A stretch of 57,323 bases of DNA from a virus, in IMG/VR virus record IMGVR_UViG_3300031658_003389, positions 1 through 57,323 of that record. The stretch is one strand, 5' to 3'. Below the pieces are notes generated by a model. It was not told where the DNA came from, did not search any database, and worked only from the letters and a program-made list of their open reading frames with translations. Positions 22,304-55,716 of the stretch are shown piece by piece. Each line of letters opens with the position of its first letter. Position 1 is the stretch's first letter. The translations under genes and the position numbers were made by a program.

Positions 22304-23908
22304 ATGGTAACGTATAATGTAATATTACATAAAGGTGTAGATTATCAATCCTTTTGGAATGATATGGAAAACGAAAACGATGGGGGTAATTTATATATCC
22401 CCAATCGAACAGTTGATTCACCTAATCAAAGATTAAATTCACAAAGACAAACTTGGTACACACTTTCGGAAGTAGAAGCTGAAAATGTAAGAAACGATGA
22501 AAGAGTTTTTGTGGTAGAGATTCCACCTGAAAATAGAGATGATATAATTATAGGACATCATGCAACTCAAGTTGGTACATTTACAAAAACAACATCGGAT
22601 AGTGGTAATTATCAAAATTGGGGATTAATCAGAGTATTATCTAAGGATAATATTTATGGTACATCAACAACTACTTCAGAAAATTACACATACACATTAA
22701 CTGGAAAGGGTGTTGATGTTGTAACACAAGATAGTGGAATGCAAACTGACCACCCTGAATGGGTAGATAGATTCGAATCAGTAGATTGGGGTAGTTATGG
22801 TGCATTCACACAAAACGCAAATCACGATAGAGATTTCGATGGACATGGTTCACATTGTGCTGGTATAGCTGTTGGTAAAACTTTTGGATTCGCTAAGGGT
22901 TCTAAGGTATTTAATCAAAAGATATCTGGATTGGAAGGTAGTGGAGATAGTGGAACTGGTATTTCACCTTCATTTGCATTTGATGCTATTAAAGGTTGGC
23001 ATAATGCTAAACCAATCGATACTATAACTGGATACAAAAGACCAACTGTTGTAAATATGAGTTGGGGATACCTATCGTTAGGTAAGGATTCTGAATTTAC
23101 AAATATAACTTATAGGGGAGCTAGTAGTAGTGGTGGTGATATCGATACCGCTGGTGAGAGGGAAACTAACTTTGGTTTAATGAGTAATCCGTATGATGTA
23201 AATGGTGGTAATACTAGATACGCAATTAATAACAGAATCTCTTCAATTGATACTGATATAGAGGAATTATTAGATGCTGGTGTACATATATGTGTAGCTG
23301 CGGGTAATCGTTCCAATAAAACCGATGAAGTTGGTGGAGATGATTATAATAACACATATTCAATTGGTAGTGGTAATAAGTTTTATCATAGAGGTTCATC
23401 CCCATATGGTGATGCAGCAATGGATGGTTCACAAAGAGCTATCATAGTTGGTAATATAGATTCATCCGTATCATCAGGAACTTTAGATAGAAAAGCAACT
23501 TCATCCGAAACTGGACCTGGTGTTGATATCTACGCAGCTGGAACAAACATAATGAGTTCAACTTCCACTACAAACAGATGGGGAGGTGGTTCTCAAAATT
23601 ACACACTAAACACTAATTTTAAACAAACTAATATAACGGGAACATCAATGGCATCACCTCAAGTAGCTGGTGTATTGGCTTGTATATTAGAACTACATCC
23701 AGAATTCACTCCAGCACAAGGTAAACAATGGTTATTAGATAATGCTGGTTCAGCTATTCTAAATACTGGAACTGGTAATGATTGGACAAATGATAGAAGT
23801 TTAAAGGGTGGTGAAGCAAAGGTATTGTATATGCCATTTAGTAACCCAATACCAATTAAAGTGACTGGATTACCAGTAACCTTTAATTTGAGTATCAAAG
23901 AAAGATAG
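22304..23908 (+). CDS. Subtilisin-like serine protease (S8)
   Basis: A 534-residue protein with a complete catalytic triad: D143 in VVTQDSGMQ, H181 in DGHGSHCAG and S448 in GTSMASPQVAG; NMSWGY supplies part of the substrate cleft. The first ~110 residues (YNVILHKGVDYQSFWNDM onward) resemble a propeptide inhibitor. No signal peptide is seen. It is directly downstream of the fibre-like gene, which suggests a virion-borne protease, either maturing the fibre or degrading host surface protein. It is a separate family from prohead proteases. Confidence 0.85.
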   Translation: MVTYNVILHKGVDYQSFWNDMENENDGGNLYIPNRTVDSPNQRLNSQRQTWYTLSEVEAENVRNDERVFVVEIPPENRDDIIIGHHATQVGTFTKTTSDSGNYQNWGLIRVLSKDNIYGTSTTTSENYTYTLTGKGVDVVTQDSGMQTDHPEWVDRFESVDWGSYGAFTQNANHDRDFDGHGSHCAGIAVGKTFGFAKGSKVFNQKISGLEGSGDSGTGISPSFAFDAIKGWHNAKPIDTITGYKRPTVVNMSWGYLSLGKDSEFTNITYRGASSSGGDIDTAGERETNFGLMSNPYDVNGGNTRYAINNRISSIDTDIEELLDAGVHICVAAGNRSNKTDEVGGDDYNNTYSIGSGNKFYHRGSSPYGDAAMDGSQRAIIVGNIDSSVSSGTLDRKATSSETGPGVDIYAAGTNIMSSTSTTNRWGGGSQNYTLNTNFKQTNITGTSMASPQVAGVLACILELHPEFTPAQGKQWLLDNAGSAILNTGTGNDWTNDRSLKGGEAKVLYMPFSNPIPIKVTGLPVTFNLSIKER

Positions 23909-32253: not shown

Positions 32254-34368
32254 ATGAGTAAATACGGAAATTCTTCTTATTGGTTAAAAGATTGGGAAGA
32301 TGAAGATAGTGTAGTTGATACAATGAGTGTAGTAGAGAAGAAATCAAATGACCTCTACAAAATGGCAGCTTCTAAACGGGCTATTTCAAACTTCGTTAAC
32401 ATTGTTACGAATGACCAAATTGCAGTTAAATTTAGTGAAAGAGGTGATTCTTATACTGATGGTAAAAGTGTAGTAATTGGTTCTAATATATCAGAACCAA
32501 AGGATTTTGATGTTGCTGTTGGATTAGCACTACATGAAGGTTCTCACATTAAACTTTCAGATTTCCAAGTTCTTAAAGATATCTATAATATAGTTCCTAC
32601 ACATATTACTGATGGGGCTATTAAGAAAGGTATTATGAATTCAGTTTCAATCATCAAAGATTTATGGAATGTTGTAGAAGATAGAAGAATTGATAAATTT
32701 GTATTTGATTCGGCTCCAGGTTATAGAGATTATTACCGAGCAATGTACGATAAGTACTTTAATGATAAATTGATTGATAAGGCTTTACAATCTGATGAAT
32801 ATACTGAAGAGAGTGTTGATTCGTATATGTTTAGAATTATTAACATTCATAATAAGAATACTGACTTAACCGCATTAAAGGGTTTAAGAGATATTTATAA
32901 AACAATGGGATTAGGTTCTATTGATAGGTTAAAAAGTTCCTTAGATGCTTTCAATGTGGCTCTAACAATGTTTCAAACTATTATGAGTAACTTACCAACA
33001 TCGGAAAGTGAAGAAGGTGATGGTGATGGTAGTAATGACCAACAAAGTGAACAACCTCAAAACGGAAATGGTGGTAATGGTTCGGATGAACCACGTGAAA
33101 TGACCGAAGAAGAGTTTGATGATTTAATGAATAGTGTAGATGGTGAATCTCCAACTGGTGGTTCTGATGAATCTCCAACTGGTAGTGGAGGAATGGAATT
33201 AGATAATGTTCCTGATGAAATGGGTACACCATCTGATTCAACTAATACTGATGAAACTGAAACAACTGAAACAACTGAAAAAGTTAAACTTTCAGATAGA
33301 CAAAAACAACTTCTACAAAAGAAAATCCAAAAACAAAAAGATTTCTTAGATGGTGATATCAAAAAGAAAAAAATCACTAAGAAGGATAATATCAATGTAG
33401 AAGCTATTCAAGAATCAGGTTCGGAAGTTACTTCGGTTGGTAGTGGTATTGAAAGTTATTATGGAAACCACCAAAAAGGTACCAAATGTATTGTAGTTAA
33501 GAGATTAACACAATCACTTTTAGAAAGTAGTATATTCCCAATGAGTTATAATAATTGGAATGTTGAAGAGAACGGCCCTATTGATAAGAGACATACGGAT
33601 GCAGTTAATGATGGTATTCGAATCGGAACTATGTTAGGTAAGAAACTTCAGGTAAGAGGTGAAGATAGAAATACTATCTTCAATCGCCAAAAATATGGTA
33701 AGATTGATAAACGAATGATATCATCATTAGGATTTGGAAACGAAAATGTATTCCAATATATGGAAACTGATTCTTATAAGAAAGCTAATCTGCATGTATC
33801 AATTGATGCTAGTGGTTCAATGAATGGTGGTAAGTGGACAAATACTATGACCAATGTGGTTGCACTTTGTAAAGCAGTTGATATGATTCAAAACCTATCA
33901 ATACAGGTTACGTTTAGAACTACATCTGGTGAGATACCTTATATAGTAATGGCTTATGATTCTCGTTCTGATAAGTTCTCTAAGGTTAAACAAATGTTTC
34001 CATCACTAAACGTAGGTGGTACTACTCCTGAGGGATTATGTTTTGAAGCAATTATGAAAAACTTCTTAGGTTCAAATAATGATATGGATTCATACTTCTT
34101 AAATATTTCAGATGGTGAACCTTACTTTGGTAATAATGATTTACACTATTCAGGTGAACCAGCGTATCAACATACTCGTAAAATGGTAAAACAAATAGAA
34201 GGTATGGGAATTCAAACTCTATCATACTACGTTGATGATTATGTACGTGAAGGAGAAGAACCATCAAAAGGATTTAAAATTATGTATGGTGCTGGTGCAA
34301 AATTGATAGATTTAAAAAACGTTTCTCAAATAACCAAAACAATGAACGGACTTTTTCTTCAAAAATAA
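32254..34368 (+). CDS. CobT-like VWA protein with HEGSH metal motif
   Basis: A 704-residue protein. GLALHEGSHIKLSDF (HExxH at residues 94-98) with downstream VVEDRRIDKF looks like a zincin-type metal site. The middle is low-complexity and acidic (about residues 250-370). The C-terminal third is a VWA domain with MIDAS DASGSMNGG (D518, S520, S522). Such proteins pair with MoxR/CobS ATPases, here the gene at 34699. The pair is known in large marine phages; the job is unproven and not cobalamin synthesis. No substrate is visible. Confidence 0.75.
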   Translation: MSKYGNSSYWLKDWEDEDSVVDTMSVVEKKSNDLYKMAASKRAISNFVNIVTNDQIAVKFSERGDSYTDGKSVVIGSNISEPKDFDVAVGLALHEGSHIKLSDFQVLKDIYNIVPTHITDGAIKKGIMNSVSIIKDLWNVVEDRRIDKFVFDSAPGYRDYYRAMYDKYFNDKLIDKALQSDEYTEESVDSYMFRIINIHNKNTDLTALKGLRDIYKTMGLGSIDRLKSSLDAFNVALTMFQTIMSNLPTSESEEGDGDGSNDQQSEQPQNGNGGNGSDEPREMTEEEFDDLMNSVDGESPTGGSDESPTGSGGMELDNVPDEMGTPSDSTNTDETETTETTEKVKLSDRQKQLLQKKIQKQKDFLDGDIKKKKITKKDNINVEAIQESGSEVTSVGSGIESYYGNHQKGTKCIVVKRLTQSLLESSIFPMSYNNWNVEENGPIDKRHTDAVNDGIRIGTMLGKKLQVRGEDRNTIFNRQKYGKIDKRMISSLGFGNENVFQYMETDSYKKANLHVSIDASGSMNGGKWTNTMTNVVALCKAVDMIQNLSIQVTFRTTSGEIPYIVMAYDSRSDKFSKVKQMFPSLNVGGTTPEGLCFEAIMKNFLGSNNDMDSYFLNISDGEPYFGNNDLHYSGEPAYQHTRKMVKQIEGMGIQTLSYYVDDYVREGEEPSKGFKIMYGAGAKLIDLKNVSQITKTMNGLFLQK

Positions 34369-34379
34369 ATGAGAAAAAG

Positions 34380-34411
34380 CTTGTGTATGTCAATTGAAAA
34401 TCGTATATTAG
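34380..34411 (+). promoter_or_regulatory. Bacteroidota-type promoter
   Basis: CTTG at 34380 in a region shared with the 94-nt repeat (AAAAAGCTTGTGTATGTCA), 20 bp, TATATTAG at 34404. Confidence 0.65.
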
Positions 34412-34412
34412 A

Positions 34413-34444
34413 GGGTAGTTAAGAAAGAGAGAGAGATACTACCC
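34413..34444 (+). promoter_or_regulatory. 5' leader hairpin
   Basis: GGGTAGT 34413-34419 pairs with ACTACCC 34438-34444 around an 18-nt purine-rich loop. It sits at or near the start of the mRNA and precedes CTAACCC. Confidence 0.5.
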
Positions 34445-34462
34445 TAACCCTAATCAAGCGAA

Positions 34463-34603
34463 ATGAAAGATAGTAAAAATACAAAACTAAAAGAAGTTCA
34501 GTTAACTTTACAAGATTGGTTAGATGCACTTAAAGTTCCAACTCCTCATAGAAATAAGAAGAAATTCTATCGTAAAGAAAAACATAAAAAAAACATCGAA
34601 TAA
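34463..34603 (+). CDS. Small basic protein
   Basis: A 46-residue ORF (MKDSKNTKLKEVQLTLQDWL and on) with a short helix and a very basic tail (HRNKKKFYRKEKHKKN). It has its own promoter and leader, and the next promoter starts within 3 bp of its stop. Possibly RNA or DNA binding. Confidence 0.5.
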   Translation: MKDSKNTKLKEVQLTLQDWLDALKVPTPHRNKKKFYRKEKHKKNIE

Positions 34604-34605
34604 AG

Positions 34606-34637
34606 TTTGGTAGTTCCAAATATATTTCGTATATTAG
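34606..34637 (+). promoter_or_regulatory. Bacteroidota-type promoter
   Basis: TTTGG at 34606 with inverted repeat TTTGG/CCAAA, 20 bp, TATATTAG at 34630. It drives the MoxR-like ATPase. Confidence 0.7.
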
Positions 34638-34652
34638 ACTAGTAATACAAAT

Positions 34653-34684
34653 GGGGAATAATCCCCGAAACAATAACCCTTTAA
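34653..34684 (+). promoter_or_regulatory. 5' leader hairpin and shared CAATAACCCTTTAA element
   Basis: GGGGA and TCCCC pair around ATAA (34653-34666), followed by CAATAACCCTTTAA (34671-34684). The hairpin covers an in-frame upstream ATG at 34651, which argues for ATG 34699 as the true start. Confidence 0.5.
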
Positions 34685-34698
34685 TACAAATAAAAGTT

Positions 34699-35907
34699 AT
34701 GCAAGATTTCACAATCGGATTCGTTAAAAATGAAGTTTACAAAGTAGAAAAGTTTGGAAATTCATTTAAGTTAATTGACACTAAAGATACCAAAGTTGGT
34801 ACAATGGGTGTTACTACTGGTACTCGTAAGAGTGCATATGTTAATGGTGAAGCACTACAATCGTTCATCAATAAGAATGGTAAGAAGGTTTACCGAAGAG
34901 TATCAATGGATGTTTACAACAACTTAGTTGTACCAATGAATACTGATAATGGTGGTGTTCAATTTGAAGACCAATCAGACCATAAAGCTATTAAAGATTT
35001 CATTCACAATGGTTCGGTTCAACTTAGACCAACTGAATTAGTGATGACTGATTTAAAATGGAAATTCCTAATACGTTCAGCTGTAAGAGCTAAGAACATT
35101 ATGATGACTGGACCAGCTGGTTGTGGTAAAACTATGGCGGCCAAATCATTAGTAAAAGCATTAGATAGACCAGATTTCTACTTCAACTTAGGAGCAACGC
35201 AAGATGCTAGAGCAACTTTGATTGGTAATACTCAGTTTGATAAACAAAAAGGAACTTACTTTTCAGAATCAGCATTTGTTAAAGCAATCAAAACTCCAAA
35301 CGCAGTTATCCTATTAGATGAGTTAAGTAGGGCTCACCCTGATGCTTGGAATATCTTAATGACCGTTTTAGATGGTGGGCAGAGATATTTAAGATTAGAT
35401 GAGGCTGAAGGTTCGCCAATTGTGAATGTGGCTGAAGGTGTTACTTTCATCGCTACGGCTAACATTGGTAACGAATACACTTCGACTAGAGTAATTGATA
35501 GAGCAATTTTAGATAGATTTGTTACTATTGAAATGGATGTTCTAAATGATGAGCAGGAATTTGAATTGTTAAAGTTTATGTTCCCTGATGTTAACGAAGA
35601 TGATTTAAAAGCAGTAGCTGAAATATCTCACCATACTCGTACTCAATCAATGAGTGATGCTGGTAAAGTTACCTCAATGGTATCGACTAGAGCTAGTGTT
35701 GAGATGGCTGGATTACTTTATGATGGTTTTGATTTATTCGAATCAGCTGAAATATCAATCTTTCCATTCTTCTCTAATGATGGTGGTGTAGATTCTGAAA
35801 GAACCTATGTGAAACAATTAGTTCAGAAGTATGTAAGGGATGAGGGTGAGGCTCTTTTCAATGAGCAGGAAGTTGAAAACGAATCAGAAGAAATTCCAAT
35901 GTTTTAA
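34699..35907 (+). CDS. MoxR/CobS-like AAA+ ATPase
   Basis: A 402-residue protein from ATG 34699 (MQDFTIGFVKNEVYKV). Walker A is GPAGCGKTMAAK (from residue 138), Walker B VILLDELSR (D207, E208), then FIATANIGNEYTSTRVIDRAILDRFV with sensor and arginine-finger residues. The first ~120 residues are a phage-type N-terminal domain. It should work with the VWA protein upstream as a remodelling chaperone or metal-insertion machine. The ATG at 34651 lies in the mRNA leader and is not preferred. Confidence 0.8.
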   Translation: MQDFTIGFVKNEVYKVEKFGNSFKLIDTKDTKVGTMGVTTGTRKSAYVNGEALQSFINKNGKKVYRRVSMDVYNNLVVPMNTDNGGVQFEDQSDHKAIKDFIHNGSVQLRPTELVMTDLKWKFLIRSAVRAKNIMMTGPAGCGKTMAAKSLVKALDRPDFYFNLGATQDARATLIGNTQFDKQKGTYFSESAFVKAIKTPNAVILLDELSRAHPDAWNILMTVLDGGQRYLRLDEAEGSPIVNVAEGVTFIATANIGNEYTSTRVIDRAILDRFVTIEMDVLNDEQEFELLKFMFPDVNEDDLKAVAEISHHTRTQSMSDAGKVTSMVSTRASVEMAGLLYDGFDLFESAEISIFPFFSNDGGVDSERTYVKQLVQKYVRDEGEALFNEQEVENESEEIPMF

Positions 35908-42337: not shown

Positions 42338-43663
42338 ATGGCAATTACTCCCTTTTCGGTATTGGATACACGTACCAAAGAATGGAAACAACGTAAGGAA
42401 TATTGGATAACCACTCAAGGTATCCAATCTGAATTAGGTAGAGAGGATACCCAAAGTAAAACAATCTTTTGGGATACTCCATCTACCAACGTTTCTATCT
42501 TTGACCCAGTCTTATGTGAGATGATGTACGAATGGTTCTCACCAAAAGGTGGAATGGTATTAGACCCGTTCGCTGGTGGAAGTGTAAGAGGAATTGTAGC
42601 TGAAGAGATGGATAGGAAATATGTTGGTATTGATTTATCTGAAACTCAAATCAAAGCTAACAAAGAACAATCAAAGAAACCTTTATGGATTTGTGGAGAT
42701 TCGAATGTAGAATTGGATAAAGTAGCCGATGAAGCATTTGACTTTGTATTTACGTGTCCTCCTTATTATGATTTAGAAGTTTATACTGATAATCCAAATG
42801 ATATATCCAATATGGATGTTGAATCATTTGATAAGGTATATGAATCCATACTCAGTAAATCGGTACAAAAGTTAAAAGATAACAGATTCTATGGAATTGT
42901 GGTATCTGAGGTTAGGGAACCATCTGTAACTGGGAAGTATTCTAAGGGTAGGTATAAAGGATTAGTTCGTAAAACGATTGATATGTTAGAATCAAATGGA
43001 ATGGAGTTCTATAATGATATGATTCTATTTAATTCTCAACATCAAGCATCACGAATTGGTAAAACTTACTTCGAACGTAATAGAAAGATTCCATCAGTAC
43101 ATCAAAACATATTAATCTTTGTAAAAGGTAACCCAGACTTAGCTACCATTGAAATGGAAGGTGGGGAACCTATATGTATGGTAGATGGTAAAGAATACTT
43201 ATCATTTAGACATGCTGCTATTGATGTGGAACCTAATAAGTTAGTTGCATCTGAGGTAGAACGTAGGTGTAATAGTACAAAATCAACATATAAGGATTGG
43301 CAAATCATAGGTAGTGAAACAAAACCAACCATTAAGTATGAAGTAGGTGGTGTACCATTTGAATCACCATTACAAATTTCTGAGTTAAGTGGGTTAACAC
43401 CTACGGAATGTAGAAATAGAATTGAATCAAACAACCCAATATATCGTCATTGGATTAAAGCAGATGGATGGGATGTTACCTATTCTGAGATGGAAGATGT
43501 ATGGGAATGTGGGTTGGAATTGGAAAAACCAATCATAGATATTGAGGGTAACTCATTTTATTCGTTAAAAGAAGCAGGTGAATACTTAAACATATCAGCA
43601 GAGAGAGTAAGACAAAAATTGAACGATTTGAAATTTAATCGTTGGATTTATTTGTATAAGTAA
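42338..43663 (+). CDS. DNA methyltransferase with three C-terminal NUMOD-like repeats
   Basis: A 441-residue protein from ATG 42338 (MAITPFSVLD); the longer frame begins inside the terminator. DPFAGGS (76-82) is motif I and CPPYYD (140-145) motif IV, so it is an N6-adenine or N4-cytosine enzyme with I-before-IV order. After residue about 275 come three units of the form [MDV]-x-G-x-x-[FY]-x-S-x-x-A/I ... [RI]-x-x-x-x-x-x-W (GKEYLSFRHAAIDV, GVPFESPLQISEL, GNSFYSLKEAGEYL), like NUMOD DNA-binding modules of homing endonucleases. No cognate restriction enzyme is next to it, so self-protection or regulation is likely. Confidence 0.8.
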   Translation: MAITPFSVLDTRTKEWKQRKEYWITTQGIQSELGREDTQSKTIFWDTPSTNVSIFDPVLCEMMYEWFSPKGGMVLDPFAGGSVRGIVAEEMDRKYVGIDLSETQIKANKEQSKKPLWICGDSNVELDKVADEAFDFVFTCPPYYDLEVYTDNPNDISNMDVESFDKVYESILSKSVQKLKDNRFYGIVVSEVREPSVTGKYSKGRYKGLVRKTIDMLESNGMEFYNDMILFNSQHQASRIGKTYFERNRKIPSVHQNILIFVKGNPDLATIEMEGGEPICMVDGKEYLSFRHAAIDVEPNKLVASEVERRCNSTKSTYKDWQIIGSETKPTIKYEVGGVPFESPLQISELSGLTPTECRNRIESNNPIYRHWIKADGWDVTYSEMEDVWECGLELEKPIIDIEGNSFYSLKEAGEYLNISAERVRQKLNDLKFNRWIYLYK

Positions 43664-43682
43664 AATAAATTTCGTATATTTG
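43651..43682 (+). promoter_or_regulatory. Bacteroidota-type promoter (full consensus)
   Basis: TTTG at 43651, 20 bp, TATATTTG at 43675; the closest match to the published Bacteroidota consensus. The -33 box lies in the end of the methyltransferase gene. Drives the TonB-dependent receptor. Confidence 0.75.
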
Positions 43683-43704: not shown

Positions 43705-45687
43705 ATGAAAAAAATAACATTATTAGCTATTATGTTGGGATTGAGTACATCAGTATTCTCTCAACAAACTAACGATACTACAACTAAACTAGATGAAGTT
43801 GTTGTAACCGCAACACGTAGTGAAATCTCATTAGAGGATTCACCAATACCTACTGAAGTGATTGGTAAGAGGGAAATCGAAAGATTAAACCTAATTACAA
43901 TGCAAGACCTTTTACAAGCTAAAGGTATTCAAGTAGCACCAATGAAAAGTGGAGGGTTTCAATTAAGAGGTCTTTCATCTGAGTATGTATTGGTAATGAT
44001 TGATGGAGTTCCAATTGCCGGAAGGGAAAGTGGAGCGTTGGATTTATCCAATATCAATTTAGGAAACGTAGAAAGAGTTGAAATCGTAAAAGGTTCAATG
44101 TCATCTCTATGGGGTAACCATGCAATTGGTGGTGTGATTAACATCATTACTAAGAAAGGTGGTAAACCATCTATACAACTGAATACTCAATATGGAACTA
44201 ACAATACATCTTTGTTAGGATTGACTGGAAACTTTAATAAAGGTAACTTCAGTAATGTATCTAAGGTAACATTGGGAAACTCAGATGGATTCGATGCAGA
44301 CCCAAATACATATGGTAAGACAGTCTTACCATCTTCTTTATTAAACATCTCAAATAGAAGTACATATAGTGATGGTGTAAACACATTCTCATTAGCAGCT
44401 AATTACTTTAAGAAAGATTCAGAAGGAGAAACTGTAACGGAAACGAATACAGCAGGTCAATTGATTGAAACTACTGAGGAAAATACATCCGATAATCTTA
44501 TTTTAGATTTAAACTATAAAAGAACATTCGGAAAGTATGTAAGTGAAATCAAATTATCGAACTCATCTTTTAGTAATTCTAACAAAGCATCATTTGAATT
44601 CTTTGGACAAGATGTTGAAAGAGTAGATGAGAGTACGCAAAATATATTCCAACCTGAGATGATTAATTCTTATAATTGGAATGATAAGAACCAAACTACA
44701 TTAGGATTTGGTATGAGAGAATACACTTATGATACTGAGAGATATGGTGGTGAAAGAAACTTAGGTTCATCCTTTGGATATCTACAACACTATCTTAACT
44801 TAGGTAAACTAAATATTATAGCTGGTGGTAGATTCGATAGTTATTCTGAATTCGGTTCGAACTTCTCGCCAAAGATATCTGCTAAATACGATGTAGGTAA
44901 ATTCTCATTCAATACATCAGTTGGTAGTGGATTCAGAGTTCCTGATTTTAGAACAATGTATCTTTCTTTAGGAGGATTCACACAAGGATTCTATGTATTA
45001 GGTTCGGAACTTATAGAAGATGAGATTAATTTCTACCAATCAAACAATCAAATAGCTTTCTTAGCATATGATATCAACGATATTAATTCATTAAAATCAG
45101 AAACTTCTGTATCTTATGATTTCGGAGTATCTTATAAAATAAACAATAGAAGTAAAGTAGGGGTTAATGTATTCCAAACTAACACAACTGATTTGATTGA
45201 ATCAGTATTTGTAGGACAGTTTATCAATCAAACCATATTATTTGGATACACAAATATCAATGATGCAACATTTAGAGGAATTGAATTTGAAGGATTGTAT
45301 CAGAAAGGTGGACTAAGATTAGATGGTTCATACCAATACTTAGAAACTGAAGCTATTAAGGGTGATGGAACTGAATTCTTCTTAGGAGAAAGACCAAAGC
45401 ACTTAACTAACTTATCAGCATCTTATACAACATCTAAGAAATATTCATTCGTATTGAATGGTACACACAAATCAGAATACTTCTTTAGAGATGTAGATGG
45501 TAGTGGAACGCAGGATGTGAATGAGTTTATACCTCAACATACATTATTAAACGGAATTATTACAAAGCAATTTGGAAAATACACAATTGGTGTAGGTTCT
45601 AATAATATATTAAACTTTACAAATAGTGAGTTCTTGAAGTTTCAAAACGGAAGAACTGTATTTGGAAAGTTAACTTATAAACTATAA
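43705..45687 (+). CDS. TonB-dependent outer-membrane receptor
   Basis: A 660-residue protein. It has a signal peptide (1-19, MKKITLLAIMLGLSTSVFSQ start), then KLDEVVVTATR, the usual stretch before the plug. The plug is complete (residues about 35-150): TEVIGKREIERL, MQDLLQAKGI, GFQLRGLSSEYVLVMIDGVP, VERVEIVKGSMSSLWGNHAIGG, VINIITKKGG. The rest is a 22-strand-type barrel with many aromatic/polar repeats. The class imports vitamin B12, heme or siderophores; the exact ligand cannot be read. The protein ends in KLTYKL rather than in Phe. It has its own strong promoter and is followed by nucleotide-sugar genes. Such a gene is very rare in a phage. Confidence 0.85.
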   Translation: MKKITLLAIMLGLSTSVFSQQTNDTTTKLDEVVVTATRSEISLEDSPIPTEVIGKREIERLNLITMQDLLQAKGIQVAPMKSGGFQLRGLSSEYVLVMIDGVPIAGRESGALDLSNINLGNVERVEIVKGSMSSLWGNHAIGGVINIITKKGGKPSIQLNTQYGTNNTSLLGLTGNFNKGNFSNVSKVTLGNSDGFDADPNTYGKTVLPSSLLNISNRSTYSDGVNTFSLAANYFKKDSEGETVTETNTAGQLIETTEENTSDNLILDLNYKRTFGKYVSEIKLSNSSFSNSNKASFEFFGQDVERVDESTQNIFQPEMINSYNWNDKNQTTLGFGMREYTYDTERYGGERNLGSSFGYLQHYLNLGKLNIIAGGRFDSYSEFGSNFSPKISAKYDVGKFSFNTSVGSGFRVPDFRTMYLSLGGFTQGFYVLGSELIEDEINFYQSNNQIAFLAYDINDINSLKSETSVSYDFGVSYKINNRSKVGVNVFQTNTTDLIESVFVGQFINQTILFGYTNINDATFRGIEFEGLYQKGGLRLDGSYQYLETEAIKGDGTEFFLGERPKHLTNLSASYTTSKKYSFVLNGTHKSEYFFRDVDGSGTQDVNEFIPQHTLLNGIITKQFGKYTIGVGSNNILNFTNSEFLKFQNGRTVFGKLTYKL

Positions 45688-50793: not shown

Positions 50794-51015
50794 ATGGGAA
50801 ATCTAAATCAATTACCTACTGTGGTAGTGATATATAAAAAGAGAAAGAATGGTAGTGGTAAGGTTTATATGGAAATATTCAAAACCACTCGATTAGATGA
50901 TATAATCGATGCTAAGAAACGTAAGCCACCAATACCACATAACTATGAGATATTAGATATTGGAGTTGGTGAATCATTCGTAGAAAGATATAAAAAAAAA
51001 TATAAATTAAAGTAG
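50794..51015 (+). CDS. Small basic hypothetical protein
   Basis: A 73-residue basic protein (VVVIYKKRKNGSGKVYMEIF) with a Pro-rich middle (KRKPPIPHN) and a Lys-rich end. No family recognised. TAG overlaps the GTG of the flavodoxin-like gene. Confidence 0.5.
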   Translation: MGNLNQLPTVVVIYKKRKNGSGKVYMEIFKTTRLDDIIDAKKRKPPIPHNYEILDIGVGESFVERYKKKYKLK

Positions 51016-51599
51016 TGAAAAAGAATTTTAAACATTTAGTAGTAATAGGGCATCCTGATAAGAAATCATTTTGTTATAATGGAATATTCAAAACTATTAT
51101 AAGACAAATGGAAAAGCACAATGAGGTGTTTGAGATTATTGATGTGTATGATGATAAGCTTCATCGTAATAGAACTGAATTGATTAAGGAGTATAAGAAA
51201 TTAATTACTTGGTCAACACACATTTATTTTGTATCACCAGTTTGGTGGTTTAGAATGACACCAAAGATGGAAACATTCTTTGATGAAGTACTAACACCGG
51301 GATTTGCATATAACTTTGTACCAATGATAGGTAAGTATGCTTATCCTAAACCAAAATTAAGTGATAAGAAGGTTAGAACATATATTACACACGGAGCACC
51401 AATGTTACCTGTTGTTACGTTGTATCTTAATTCAGTTAAGTTAAGATTGGTAATGGGAGTTTATACATTTGTATTTGGTTGGAATCTAAATAGGTGGTTT
51501 AAAACAAAACAATTTTGGTCTGTTCCATTTGTTACAAAAGAAAAGAGAGCAAAGTATTTACAAGTAGTAAAGAACGATATTAAACGAGATTTAAGATAG
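51015..51599 (+). CDS. Flavodoxin-fold NAD(P)H oxidoreductase
   Basis: A 194-residue protein with a GTG start. LVVIGHPDKKSFCYNGIFKT is the FMN/FAD phosphate loop of the MdaB/KefF quinone reductase type. THIYFVSPVWWFRMTPKMETFFDEVLTPGFAY is the diagnostic P-x-W-W-[FY]-x-x-P-x-x-[ML]-K/E-x-[FW]-x-D-x-[VL] motif. It reduces quinones or similar acceptors with NAD(P)H. It could feed electrons to the heme oxygenase 2.3 kb downstream, but that link is speculative. Confidence 0.8.
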   Translation: MKKNFKHLVVIGHPDKKSFCYNGIFKTIIRQMEKHNEVFEIIDVYDDKLHRNRTELIKEYKKLITWSTHIYFVSPVWWFRMTPKMETFFDEVLTPGFAYNFVPMIGKYAYPKPKLSDKKVRTYITHGAPMLPVVTLYLNSVKLRLVMGVYTFVFGWNLNRWFKTKQFWSVPFVTKEKRAKYLQVVKNDIKRDLR

Positions 51600-53768: not shown

Positions 53769-53939
53769 ATGAGAAAATTTTATAGAAGTACGAAAAACAA
53801 ATACCTAACAGGTGTTTGTGGTGGGTTAGGATACCACACAAAAGTAGACCCGATTATATGGAGAGCATTCTTCTTATTATTAGGACCAGGTTCAATCGTT
53901 GCATATTTAGTATTAACCATTTTAACTGAGAAGAAATAA
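53769..53939 (+). CDS. PspC-domain membrane protein
   Basis: A 56-residue protein. MRKFYRSTKNKYLTGVCGGLG then HTKVDPIIWRAFFLLLGPGS is the PspC core: [FL]-x-R-S-x-x-[DN]-K-x-[LI]-x-G-V-C-G-G-[LI], then the amphipathic D-P-x-[IL]-x-R and a transmembrane helix. PspC belongs to the phage-shock membrane-stress response. In a phage it may stabilise the inner membrane or block the host's response. Just upstream of heme oxygenase, 1 bp apart. Confidence 0.85.
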   Translation: MRKFYRSTKNKYLTGVCGGLGYHTKVDPIIWRAFFLLLGPGSIVAYLVLTILTEKK

Positions 53940-53940
53940 T

Positions 53941-54453
53941 ATGTTACCTTTAAAAGAAGCAACTGCTGAAAAGCACAAATTGGCTGAAAGGATGCCATTC
54001 AATGGTAGAATGTATACCGGAAAACTAACAGATGATGAATATTGTATATATTTAAAATCTCAATTGGCAATCTTTACCACATTGGAACGTAACTTTAAGT
54101 TACCATCCGAAAAGTTAAGTAGAGTTAATGCAGTACAAAGAGATTTGGTAGCATTGGGCTCAAATCAATTGGAGATGTTTCCAGATAAAGCTACTCGTAA
54201 ATACGTTGAGTATTTAGAAACGATATCACAAGATGATGCTATGGCTCATGTCTATCTTAACTACCTTGCTATTATGTTTGGTGGACAGATGATGAAAGCT
54301 CAAACACCTGGACCTGGTCATATGTATGATTTCGAAGATATGAAAGGTGCTGCTGGTTCAGTTAGAGAAATCCAAAAGGATGAGTGGGCTGATGAAGTTA
54401 ACAAAGGATTTGATTTTATGATTGAAATCTTTAAGGAATTGGATAATGTATAA
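53941..54453 (+). CDS. Heme oxygenase (biliverdin-forming type)
   Basis: A 170-residue protein. KEATAEKHKLAERMPF gives the proximal heme ligand H12. YLNYLAIMFGGQMMKA is the distal helix with the G-G-Q kink (114-116) that opens the heme pocket. The first helix and the D-D-x-Y-C-x-Y-L segment also match the HemeO fold. It opens heme to biliverdin, CO and Fe2+ with reductant. Shorter than plant/animal HO-1 but near bacterial HemO length. The bilin reductase ATG lies 8 bp inside its end, so the two are translationally coupled. Confidence 0.85.
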   Translation: MLPLKEATAEKHKLAERMPFNGRMYTGKLTDDEYCIYLKSQLAIFTTLERNFKLPSEKLSRVNAVQRDLVALGSNQLEMFPDKATRKYVEYLETISQDDAMAHVYLNYLAIMFGGQMMKAQTPGPGHMYDFEDMKGAAGSVREIQKDEWADEVNKGFDFMIEIFKELDNV

Positions 54454-55108
54454 TATAGTTGAACGAATCAAATATCATAGTGATAAGTTTAAGGAAATCA
54501 TTGAAGCGCAAGCTGGGGTTTCTGAACTTTATACTGATGATTATGGTTGGGAAAATTATAGATACGAATCACCTCTATTCAGATTAGCACACGTTGAACG
54601 TTATTCTCATATGGGATTGCAAGTTGTACATATAACTTGCTTCCCTCGTAAGAACTCAAAAGCACCTATCTTTGGATTTGATGTAGTTGGTTATCAGAAT
54701 GATGAAAAGCAAACATCTAAAATTAGTGGTGTGTTTATTGATGTTTCACCAATTATGTATGAGGAGAAGTGGCACGATACCCAATGGAATAAAGATAGAA
54801 AGTTACCAGTATGGGCAACTGTATTTTCAAAGGATTTCATAGCAGTAAGACCTACTGAAGATGAATATGAGAAAGTATTTGAAGTTGGATTTACAGCATT
54901 TGAAAAATACATAGAAACTTTGAATAGTGAAGTAGATTTAACTGATGATGTTAGTGAAATTGAACAAATTATAGATAAGCAAAACACATATTGTAAACAC
55001 CAAGCATCAAACCCAAGAACATATGGAGCATTAAAAGCAAACATTGGTGAGGAAAAGGCTAGGTACTTTATGGAGAAGGTTTTATTTCCACAAATAGATA
55101 AAGATTGA
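54446..55108 (+). CDS. Ferredoxin-dependent bilin reductase (PcyA/PebS/PcyX family)
   Basis: A 220-residue protein from ATG 54446, overlapping heme oxygenase. YESPLFRLAHVERYSHMGLQ, VVHITCFPRK, APIFGFDVVG and SGVFIDVSP follow the family in order. E51, H62 and D79 fall where PcyA has Glu76, His88 and Asp105, and the His-Asp spacing (17) is the same. The end (YCKHQASNPRTYGALK, then ARYFMEKVLFP) is the conserved C-terminal Q-x-x-N-x-[KR]-T ... Y-x-x-x-V-L-F. It should reduce biliverdin to a phytobilin such as PCB or PEB using ferredoxin. Which product is open. No ferredoxin gene is in the window. Confidence 0.8.
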   Translation: MYNIVERIKYHSDKFKEIIEAQAGVSELYTDDYGWENYRYESPLFRLAHVERYSHMGLQVVHITCFPRKNSKAPIFGFDVVGYQNDEKQTSKISGVFIDVSPIMYEEKWHDTQWNKDRKLPVWATVFSKDFIAVRPTEDEYEKVFEVGFTAFEKYIETLNSEVDLTDDVSEIEQIIDKQNTYCKHQASNPRTYGALKANIGEEKARYFMEKVLFPQIDKD

Positions 55109-55419
55109 AAACTAAGAAGATAATAATTGAAGATGAATCTATGGTAACGTGGAGTATAGAAAACCACTACACCATTAATTTAGCATTGTATGATACTATA
55201 TTTGATTTCGTAAAATCGGACATTTCGTCATTCCCAGCTATGAGAATATACTCATTTAGTGACAAAGACATGGATGGTACGGATATTGTAACAGACTTTA
55301 CGATAGTGAGAAAGGATATGGATATGGCTATTCAAAAATTGTTAGAAGCATTTGAGGGATATGAGGAATATGATAAATGTGCTAAGATATTAAAACTACA
55401 ACAAAGTTTGGATAATTAG
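55105..55419 (+). CDS. Hypothetical protein with UVR-like end
   Basis: A 104-residue protein if the TTG overlapping the bilin reductase stop is used, or 92 from ATG 55141. The C-terminus (YEEYDKCAKILKLQQSLDN) resembles the UVR motif (E-x-x-[FY]-E-x-A/C-A-x-x-R-D) and the end of the protein at 55465. A transcript partner of the bilin reductase; function unknown. Confidence 0.5.
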   Translation: MKTKKIIIEDESMVTWSIENHYTINLALYDTIFDFVKSDISSFPAMRIYSFSDKDMDGTDIVTDFTIVRKDMDMAIQKLLEAFEGYEEYDKCAKILKLQQSLDN

Positions 55420-55464: not shown

Positions 55465-55716
55465 ATGGAAGGTAAGAAAGTATCTATTGATGAATTCATT
55501 CAAATGTTTGGAACGGAACCATCTGATGAGAATTTACATATAATGACTCAACAGTTTGTGAAAACATATCATACATTTGGTGTAGACCCAATTGAATTAG
55601 TTGAGGGATTCGGAATGGATTGGGTTCAAACTTTATTAGAATACAATGAACAAATTGAAGAGTATGAATTATGTGCTATCTTCAGAGATTTAATAAACGA
55701 TTATAAACAAAAATAA
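55465..55716 (+). CDS. Small UVR-motif-like protein
   Basis: An 83-residue protein. The C-terminus (QIEEYELCAIFRDLINDYKQ) fits a UVR-type helix pair (E-E-Y-E-x-C-A-x-x-R-D). The first half (VSIDEFIQMFGTEPSDENLH) is helical and acidic. It leads the chaperonin operon, so it could be a chaperonin-linked adaptor, though that is guesswork. Confidence 0.5.
   Translation: MEGKKVSIDEFIQMFGTEPSDENLHIMTQQFVKTYHTFGVDPIELVEGFGMDWVQTLLEYNEQIEEYELCAIFRDLINDYKQK

Follow-up and report, generated by a model that had tools for sequence, protein, structure and literature searches.

What does a phage of non-photosynthetic bacteria gain from a heme oxygenase (HO) and a ferredoxin-dependent bilin reductase (FDBR), a cassette whose purpose in phages of heterotrophs has been called "still enigmatic" (PMC11480375)? 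The question is raised by a 57,323-base linear IMG/VR virus fragment, IMGVR_UViG_3300031658_003389, analysed here over its whole length (the window), in which the following features form the locus of interest:

53941..54453, + strand: heme oxygenase (HO fold), 170 aa; PF01126, E=5e-14
54446..55108, + strand: ferredoxin-dependent bilin reductase, 220 aa, ATG at 54446; PF05996, E=1e-22
54268..54273, + strand: codons of HO A110-I111, where the catalytic distal Gly-Asp pair is lost in the alignment to human HO-1
54596..54598, + strand: codon of FDBR Glu51, aligned with Glu76 of PcyA and Asp55 of PcyX

The FDBR start lies inside the HO gene, giving an overlap of 8 bp (54446-54453). Coordinates, Pfam families, predicted folds and dN/dS all confirm the overlapping HO-FDBR pair that had been described from the letters alone (the sequence-only reading); in related phages dN/dS is 0.07-0.32 for the HO and FDBR genes, a sign of purifying selection.

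The same arrangement is widespread among phages. Scanning IMG/VR with the FDBR returned hundreds of relatives, at least 578 of them confirmed, and HO and FDBR adjoin, usually overlapping, in nearly all of the ~160 loci fetched; some of these loci are the same contig twice, and the residue counts for phage HOs and FDBRs use distinct sequences. Among the matches listed, the nearest FDBR relatives are L002-L004 (76-78% identity) and L011/L012 (68%), which also have much of the window's surrounding gene order, up to GroES/GroEL. Isolate groups previously known to carry the pair are cyanophages and Pelagibacter phage Mosig, the latter 32% (HO) and 31% (FDBR) identical to the window. The proposal of a new phage metabolic system is not supported, since published work already describes HO-FDBR cassettes from phages of heterotrophs (PMC11480375; Mosig EXVC030M) and related FDBRs number in the hundreds in IMG/VR.

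Several of the fetched loci show further rearrangements. Two (L047:6708-8573 and L064:6811-8663) encode an HO followed by tandem FDBRs, Asp-type (PcyX-like) and then Glu-type; with these, a single phage might run a bilin pathway of two steps or with two products. A GIY-YIG homing endonuclease-like ORF sits just 3' of the FDBR gene in L008:9721-11047 (same contig in L021 and L101), with a duplicate of the FDBR C-terminus 3' of it, as if the insertion carried its own gene end. The FDBR frame of L086:7992-8595 (same contig in L110) is split over two frames by decay, frameshift or sequencing error, and Asp-type (PcyX-type) phage loci such as L130 and L156 repeatedly have ClpS-like and Hsp20-like genes upstream of HO.

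To which type of bilin reductase does the window FDBR belong? It scores 81 bits against PF05996 (curated cut-off 31), and its AlphaFold2 model (pLDDT 94.9) has PcyA 2g18 as best PDB match (TM 0.82); by sequence, the nearest solved FDBR is PcyX 5owg (E=4e-18), with PcyA second. The catalytic triad of PcyA is complete, E51, H62 and D79 aligning with Glu76, His88 and Asp105 of Synechocystis PcyA. The PcyA equivalog score, 90.7 bits, is below the cut-off of 206, and in the tree the protein branches apart from the PcyA references, not inside the cyanobacterial PcyA clade. The Asp55 that defines PcyX is also absent, Glu51 taking its place, and the window FDBR belongs to a separate phage clade whose members lack the three-residue PcyX loop; PcyX_5owg sits in an adjacent clade (SH-aLRT 94 and 92 for the two clades). 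Pre-PcyA of heterotrophic bacteria is characterized by missing Glu76 and His88 (PMC10151467), both of which the window FDBR has. In the FDBR tree the phage FDBRs of the set make up a single group (SH-aLRT 100), separate from the PcyA and PebA/PebB of cyanobacteria and cyanophages. With references subtracted, 118 distinct phage FDBRs carry at the PcyA Glu76 position Asp (64), Glu (51), Gln (2) or Cys (1), while the His88 and Asp105 equivalents are kept in 118/118; Asp here marks the PcyX type, which includes Mosig and PcyX, and the window FDBR is Glu-type.

Two published phage cassettes provide the closest comparisons. The hemO-pcyX cassette of marine phages, including Pelagibacter phage Mosig EXVC030M (PcyX_EBK42635, PDB 5owg), resembles the window pair in that its HO and FDBR genes adjoin or overlap, in its occurrence in phages of heterotrophs and in its neighbouring place in the FDBR tree. 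It differs in that PcyX and Mosig carry an extra loop and Asp at the PcyA Glu76 position, where the window FDBR has Glu and no loop, and in that Gly139-Asp140 is retained in the Mosig HO, where the window HO has Ala-Ile. The vhemO/vpcyA pair of peat-bog phage CB_2, compared by its published description, likewise combines a phage HO with an FDBR lacking the PcyX Asp55 in a non-cyanobacterial host; it differs in the alphaproteobacterial host proposed for it and in a linked valaS (PMC11480375). Phycocyanobilin is the demonstrated product in CB_2, and its formation is credited to the lack of Asp55 (PMC11480375). The window FDBR very likely reduces a bilin, and phycocyanobilin is, on the CB_2 precedent, its moderately favoured product; E51 by itself does not prove this.

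The HO presents a different picture. Its AlphaFold2 model (pLDDT 95.2) best matches HmuO 1iw1 (TM 0.83), phmmer relates it to human HO-1 (E=7e-7), and H12 aligns with the proximal His25 of the human enzyme, so that both the HO fold and the proximal His of the canonical HO-1 type are present. Also kept relative to human HO-1 are Glu29, Arg85, Tyr114, Tyr134 and Gly143-Gly144. The canonical distal network is not: the distal-helix motif reads YLAIMFGG, with A110-I111 in place of Gly139-Asp140, F45 in place of Tyr58 and N107 in place of Arg136. The earlier statement that both proteins carry their key residues therefore stands for E51, H62 and D79 of the FDBR and H12 of the HO and fails for the HO distal Gly-Asp, Tyr58 and Arg136 equivalents. 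As judged from the alignment, an HO without its distal catalytic Asp is the most unusual feature of the locus, and one that the sequence-only reading did not mention.

This loss is shared by many phages and is not confined to one position. Asp140 is missing in 44 of 109 distinct phage HOs, among which Tyr58 is replaced by Phe in 34/44, Arg136 by Asn in 33/44 and Gly139 by Ala in 30/44, whereas Tyr58 is kept in 65/65 phage HOs with Asp140. The clade that unites Asp140-less HOs of phages and Bacteroidota shows the same pattern, most members also lacking Tyr58, Arg136 and Gly139. On these alignments it is the whole proton-relay network, not a single residue, that is exchanged. All Asp140-less phage HOs with a typed partner pair with a Glu- or Gln-type FDBR; we do not claim functional coupling from these perfect counts, as the association involves as few as 3 and 2 changes on the FDBR tree, too few to be testable as independent events. 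Separately, Glu/Gln-type phages L034 and L036-L045 have Pro, Trp or Tyr where Asp140 would be in the HO and lie outside the Bacteroidota HO clade, perhaps reflecting independent losses.

Can such an HO still open heme to biliverdin? Human HO-1 D140A is a peroxidase, and the title of the crystal work on G139A reports the same oxygenase-to-peroxidase switch (PMC5623701), which implies that the window HO may not make biliverdin. On the other hand, the higher-plant HO-1 of soybean, GmHO-1, lacks Arg136 and Asp140 like the window HO and is active via another network, working with ferredoxin and serving photoreceptor-pigment synthesis (PMC7948506), so that loss of Asp140 alone does not mean a dead enzyme. 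The alternative network of GmHO-1 uses Ala149/His150 where the window HO has A110/I111, and the two proteins show distant sequence similarity only. The best surviving alternative to ordinary biliverdin formation is that Asp140-less HOs are mainly heme-dependent peroxidases, or open heme elsewhere, with the FDBR handling a non-standard bilin or keeping a low biliverdin output flowing. Both the coordinated swap of Asp140, Tyr58, Arg136 and Gly139 and the human mutants speak for such altered chemistry; the active plant enzyme, and a partner FDBR that keeps the full triad acting on biliverdin IXalpha, make it unlikely in our judgement. We regard a catalytically active window HO as likely.

Where do these HOs come from, and which bacteria does the phage infect? 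Scanning genomes with Asp140-less HOs identified 32 cellular loci, nearly all in Bacteroidota, including cultured Aquimarina longa and Sediminibacterium sp. C3 and many on long chromosomal contigs; single loci labelled Cloacimonadota and Alphaproteobacteria are possibly bin errors. Chromosomal HOs of Bacteroidota (among them Aquimarina longa L190, Sediminibacterium sp. C3 L197, Flavobacteriales L171/L187) are 44-56% identical to the window HO and share its Asp140-less distal helix and clade. A careful HO tree supports this clade of Asp140-less HOs, Bacteroidota chromosomal ones included, at 100/100, and within it the window HO, L011 and L004 group with the HOs of L172 and L187 (96/88), which are of the same type as those of Flavobacteriales L171 and L179. 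Phage lineages are basal in this tree, and AU tests of transfer direction are borderline (p 0.089 and 0.044). Expression signals point the same way: of 62 starts, 5 have a Shine-Dalgarno-like motif in front, as expected from background, and the promoter pattern TTTG-N17-20-TAnnTTTG occurs at 9 sites against 2.4 expected, with 0 of 100 shuffles reaching 9. One match precedes the gene of a TonB-dependent receptor:

43651..43682, + strand: Bacteroidota-type promoter, TTTG-N20-TATATTTG, by pattern match

The window GroEL is nearest to GroEL of Bacteroides phages. As indirect signals, gene kinship, promoters and the lack of a Shine-Dalgarno excess leave us highly confident of a Bacteroidota host, probably within Flavobacteriales. 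Phylogeny of both proteins, with the FDBR far from cyanobacterial and cyanophage PcyA, PebA and PebB and the HO nested with Flavobacteriales HOs, bears out the original suggestion that the host is non-cyanobacterial and most likely belongs to Bacteroidota.

The sampled hosts have HOs and no reductase. Some PF01126 HO is present in 44 of 395 sampled Bacteroidota genomes, and an FDBR in none of the 395; nor was one found in 18 Bacteroidota genomes bearing an Asp140-less HO, so that the chromosomal HOs stand alone, unlike the phage pair. The phage would therefore supply a step missing in its host. A first genome-contig scan with the FDBR alignment likewise found no cellular relative, although its peptide patterns were narrow and absence outside Bacteroidota is not thereby shown. 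Tentatively, and at less than even odds, a previously unrecognised HO subfamily common to Bacteroidota chromosomes and phages may open heme without the Asp140 relay, via different proton-delivery or peroxide-driven chemistry; in phages, where it is joined to a PcyA-like reductase of their own, it would open a new heme-to-phycobilin route in hosts without a bilin reductase.

What would this route be for? The best overall explanation, to which we give about an even chance, is an active, translationally coupled heme-degradation pair in a large tailed Bacteroidota phage. The HO would open heme to biliverdin, iron and CO, its remodelled distal pocket standing in for the Asp140-Tyr58-Arg136 network. 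Host ferredoxin would feed the FDBR, which would then reduce biliverdin. A four-electron reduction yielding phycocyanobilin is the likeliest, given that the FDBR carries Glu (E51), as PcyA does, where PcyX has Asp. The phage would probably gain iron from heme, with the reductase pulling the HO product away and the pigment as by-product or antioxidant. Iron release as the purpose of the pair falls slightly short of an even chance. In Flavobacteriales L171, L179 and L187, whose HOs are the closest cellular ones, TonB-dependent receptor genes immediately precede the HO gene, as is typical of loci for the uptake of heme or metals; among the chromosomal loci this arrangement was seen only in Flavobacteriales, and no obvious iron-related neighbours of HO were found in cellular loci outside that order.

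The window genes around the pair bear on this reading to different degrees:

43705..45687, + strand: TonB-dependent receptor, BtuB/heme-receptor-like, 10 kb upstream of the pair; PF07715, E=3e-21
51015..51599, + strand: flavodoxin-like NAD(P)H oxidoreductase; PF02525, E=7e-19
53769..53939, + strand: PspC-domain membrane protein, 56 aa, ending 1 nt before the HO start; PF04024, E=1e-15
55105..55419, + strand: small third gene, 104 aa, likely TTG start overlapping the FDBR stop; conserved in related loci

The TonB receptor is 70-71% identical to those of L229/L230 and has orthologues in the closest relatives, L002 and L003. NCBIfam B12- and heme-receptor models fall below cut-off on it, the B12 model scoring best, and its link to the HO-FDBR pair is uncertain. 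As a possible copy of the HO-linked receptors it was rejected, with no match among ORFs of the Bacteroidota loci. The flavodoxin-like oxidoreductase, kept in L002-L004 at 71-75% identity, is a candidate and possible reductant. Counting against the best explanation are the B12-like character of the receptor, the restriction of the TonB receptor plug domain to 9 of the 30 phage records searched, and the lack of a phage ferredoxin in those 30 records, Mosig alone having one.

Other neighbours are conserved in position. The PspC gene is found at the same place in L003, L004 and L011. The small third gene accompanies the pair in 10 loci with a Glu/Gln-type FDBR and 0 with an Asp-type one, at 50% identity in L011/L012 and 30% in L005. 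Its product shares an EEYExCAxIxxL-like C-terminal motif, UVR-motif-like by eye and with no Pfam match, with other small proteins (window 55465-55716; L002:9198-9485). Elsewhere in the window (32254-35907), a CobT-like VWA protein adjoins a CobS/MoxR-like AAA ATPase.

Instead of releasing iron, the pair might make a chromophore for a light receptor or bilin-binding protein of the infected cell. The CB_2 phage PcyA supplies a functional phytochrome chromophore (PMC11480375), and pre-PcyA of heterotrophs is accompanied by bilin-binding globins (PMC10151467). However, a search confined to the PHY domain detected no phytochrome in the 18 HO-bearing Bacteroidota genomes or in 25 phage records, and no light-receptor or bilin-binding gene was recognised beside the pair. 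The phytochrome-chromophore idea raised at the outset is thereby weakened, and a signalling role appears quite improbable. This absence and the TonB-adjacent HOs of L171, L179 and L187 are the reasons for ranking iron release first, ahead of light signalling. A cyanophage-type ho1/pcyA pair that serves phycobilisomes is disfavoured to the point of being negligible: cyanophage ho1 with pcyA or pebS performs the same two reactions, and an S8-peptidase ORF at 22304-23905 resembles T4-like cyanophage proteins, but the cyanophage pair consists of cyanobacterial-type proteins in a photosynthetic host (P-SSM2 HO keeps GD), no photosynthesis genes were recognised among annotated window ORFs, and both trees as well as the promoter and Shine-Dalgarno signals argue for Bacteroidota.

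The window pair is a variant of a known cassette, since neither the Asp55 of PcyX, nor the missing Glu76 and His88 of pre-PcyA, nor the distal Asp of canonical HO is found in it. The open literature searched gave nothing relevant on HO or FDBR in Bacteroidota phages; new relative to it are the group of Bacteroidota phages with Glu-type FDBRs, the clade of Asp140-less HOs common to phages and host chromosomes, and a sampled host phylum (395 genomes) without the reductase. The HO clade bears on how heme can be opened without a distal Asp that human HO-1 mutants have led to be regarded as essential. The phage group makes the question of bilin production in phages of non-photosynthetic bacteria testable: culturable Aquimarina longa and Sediminibacterium have a related HO but neither a bilin reductase nor a phytochrome with a PHY domain, so that the effect of adding the phage reductase is directly measurable.
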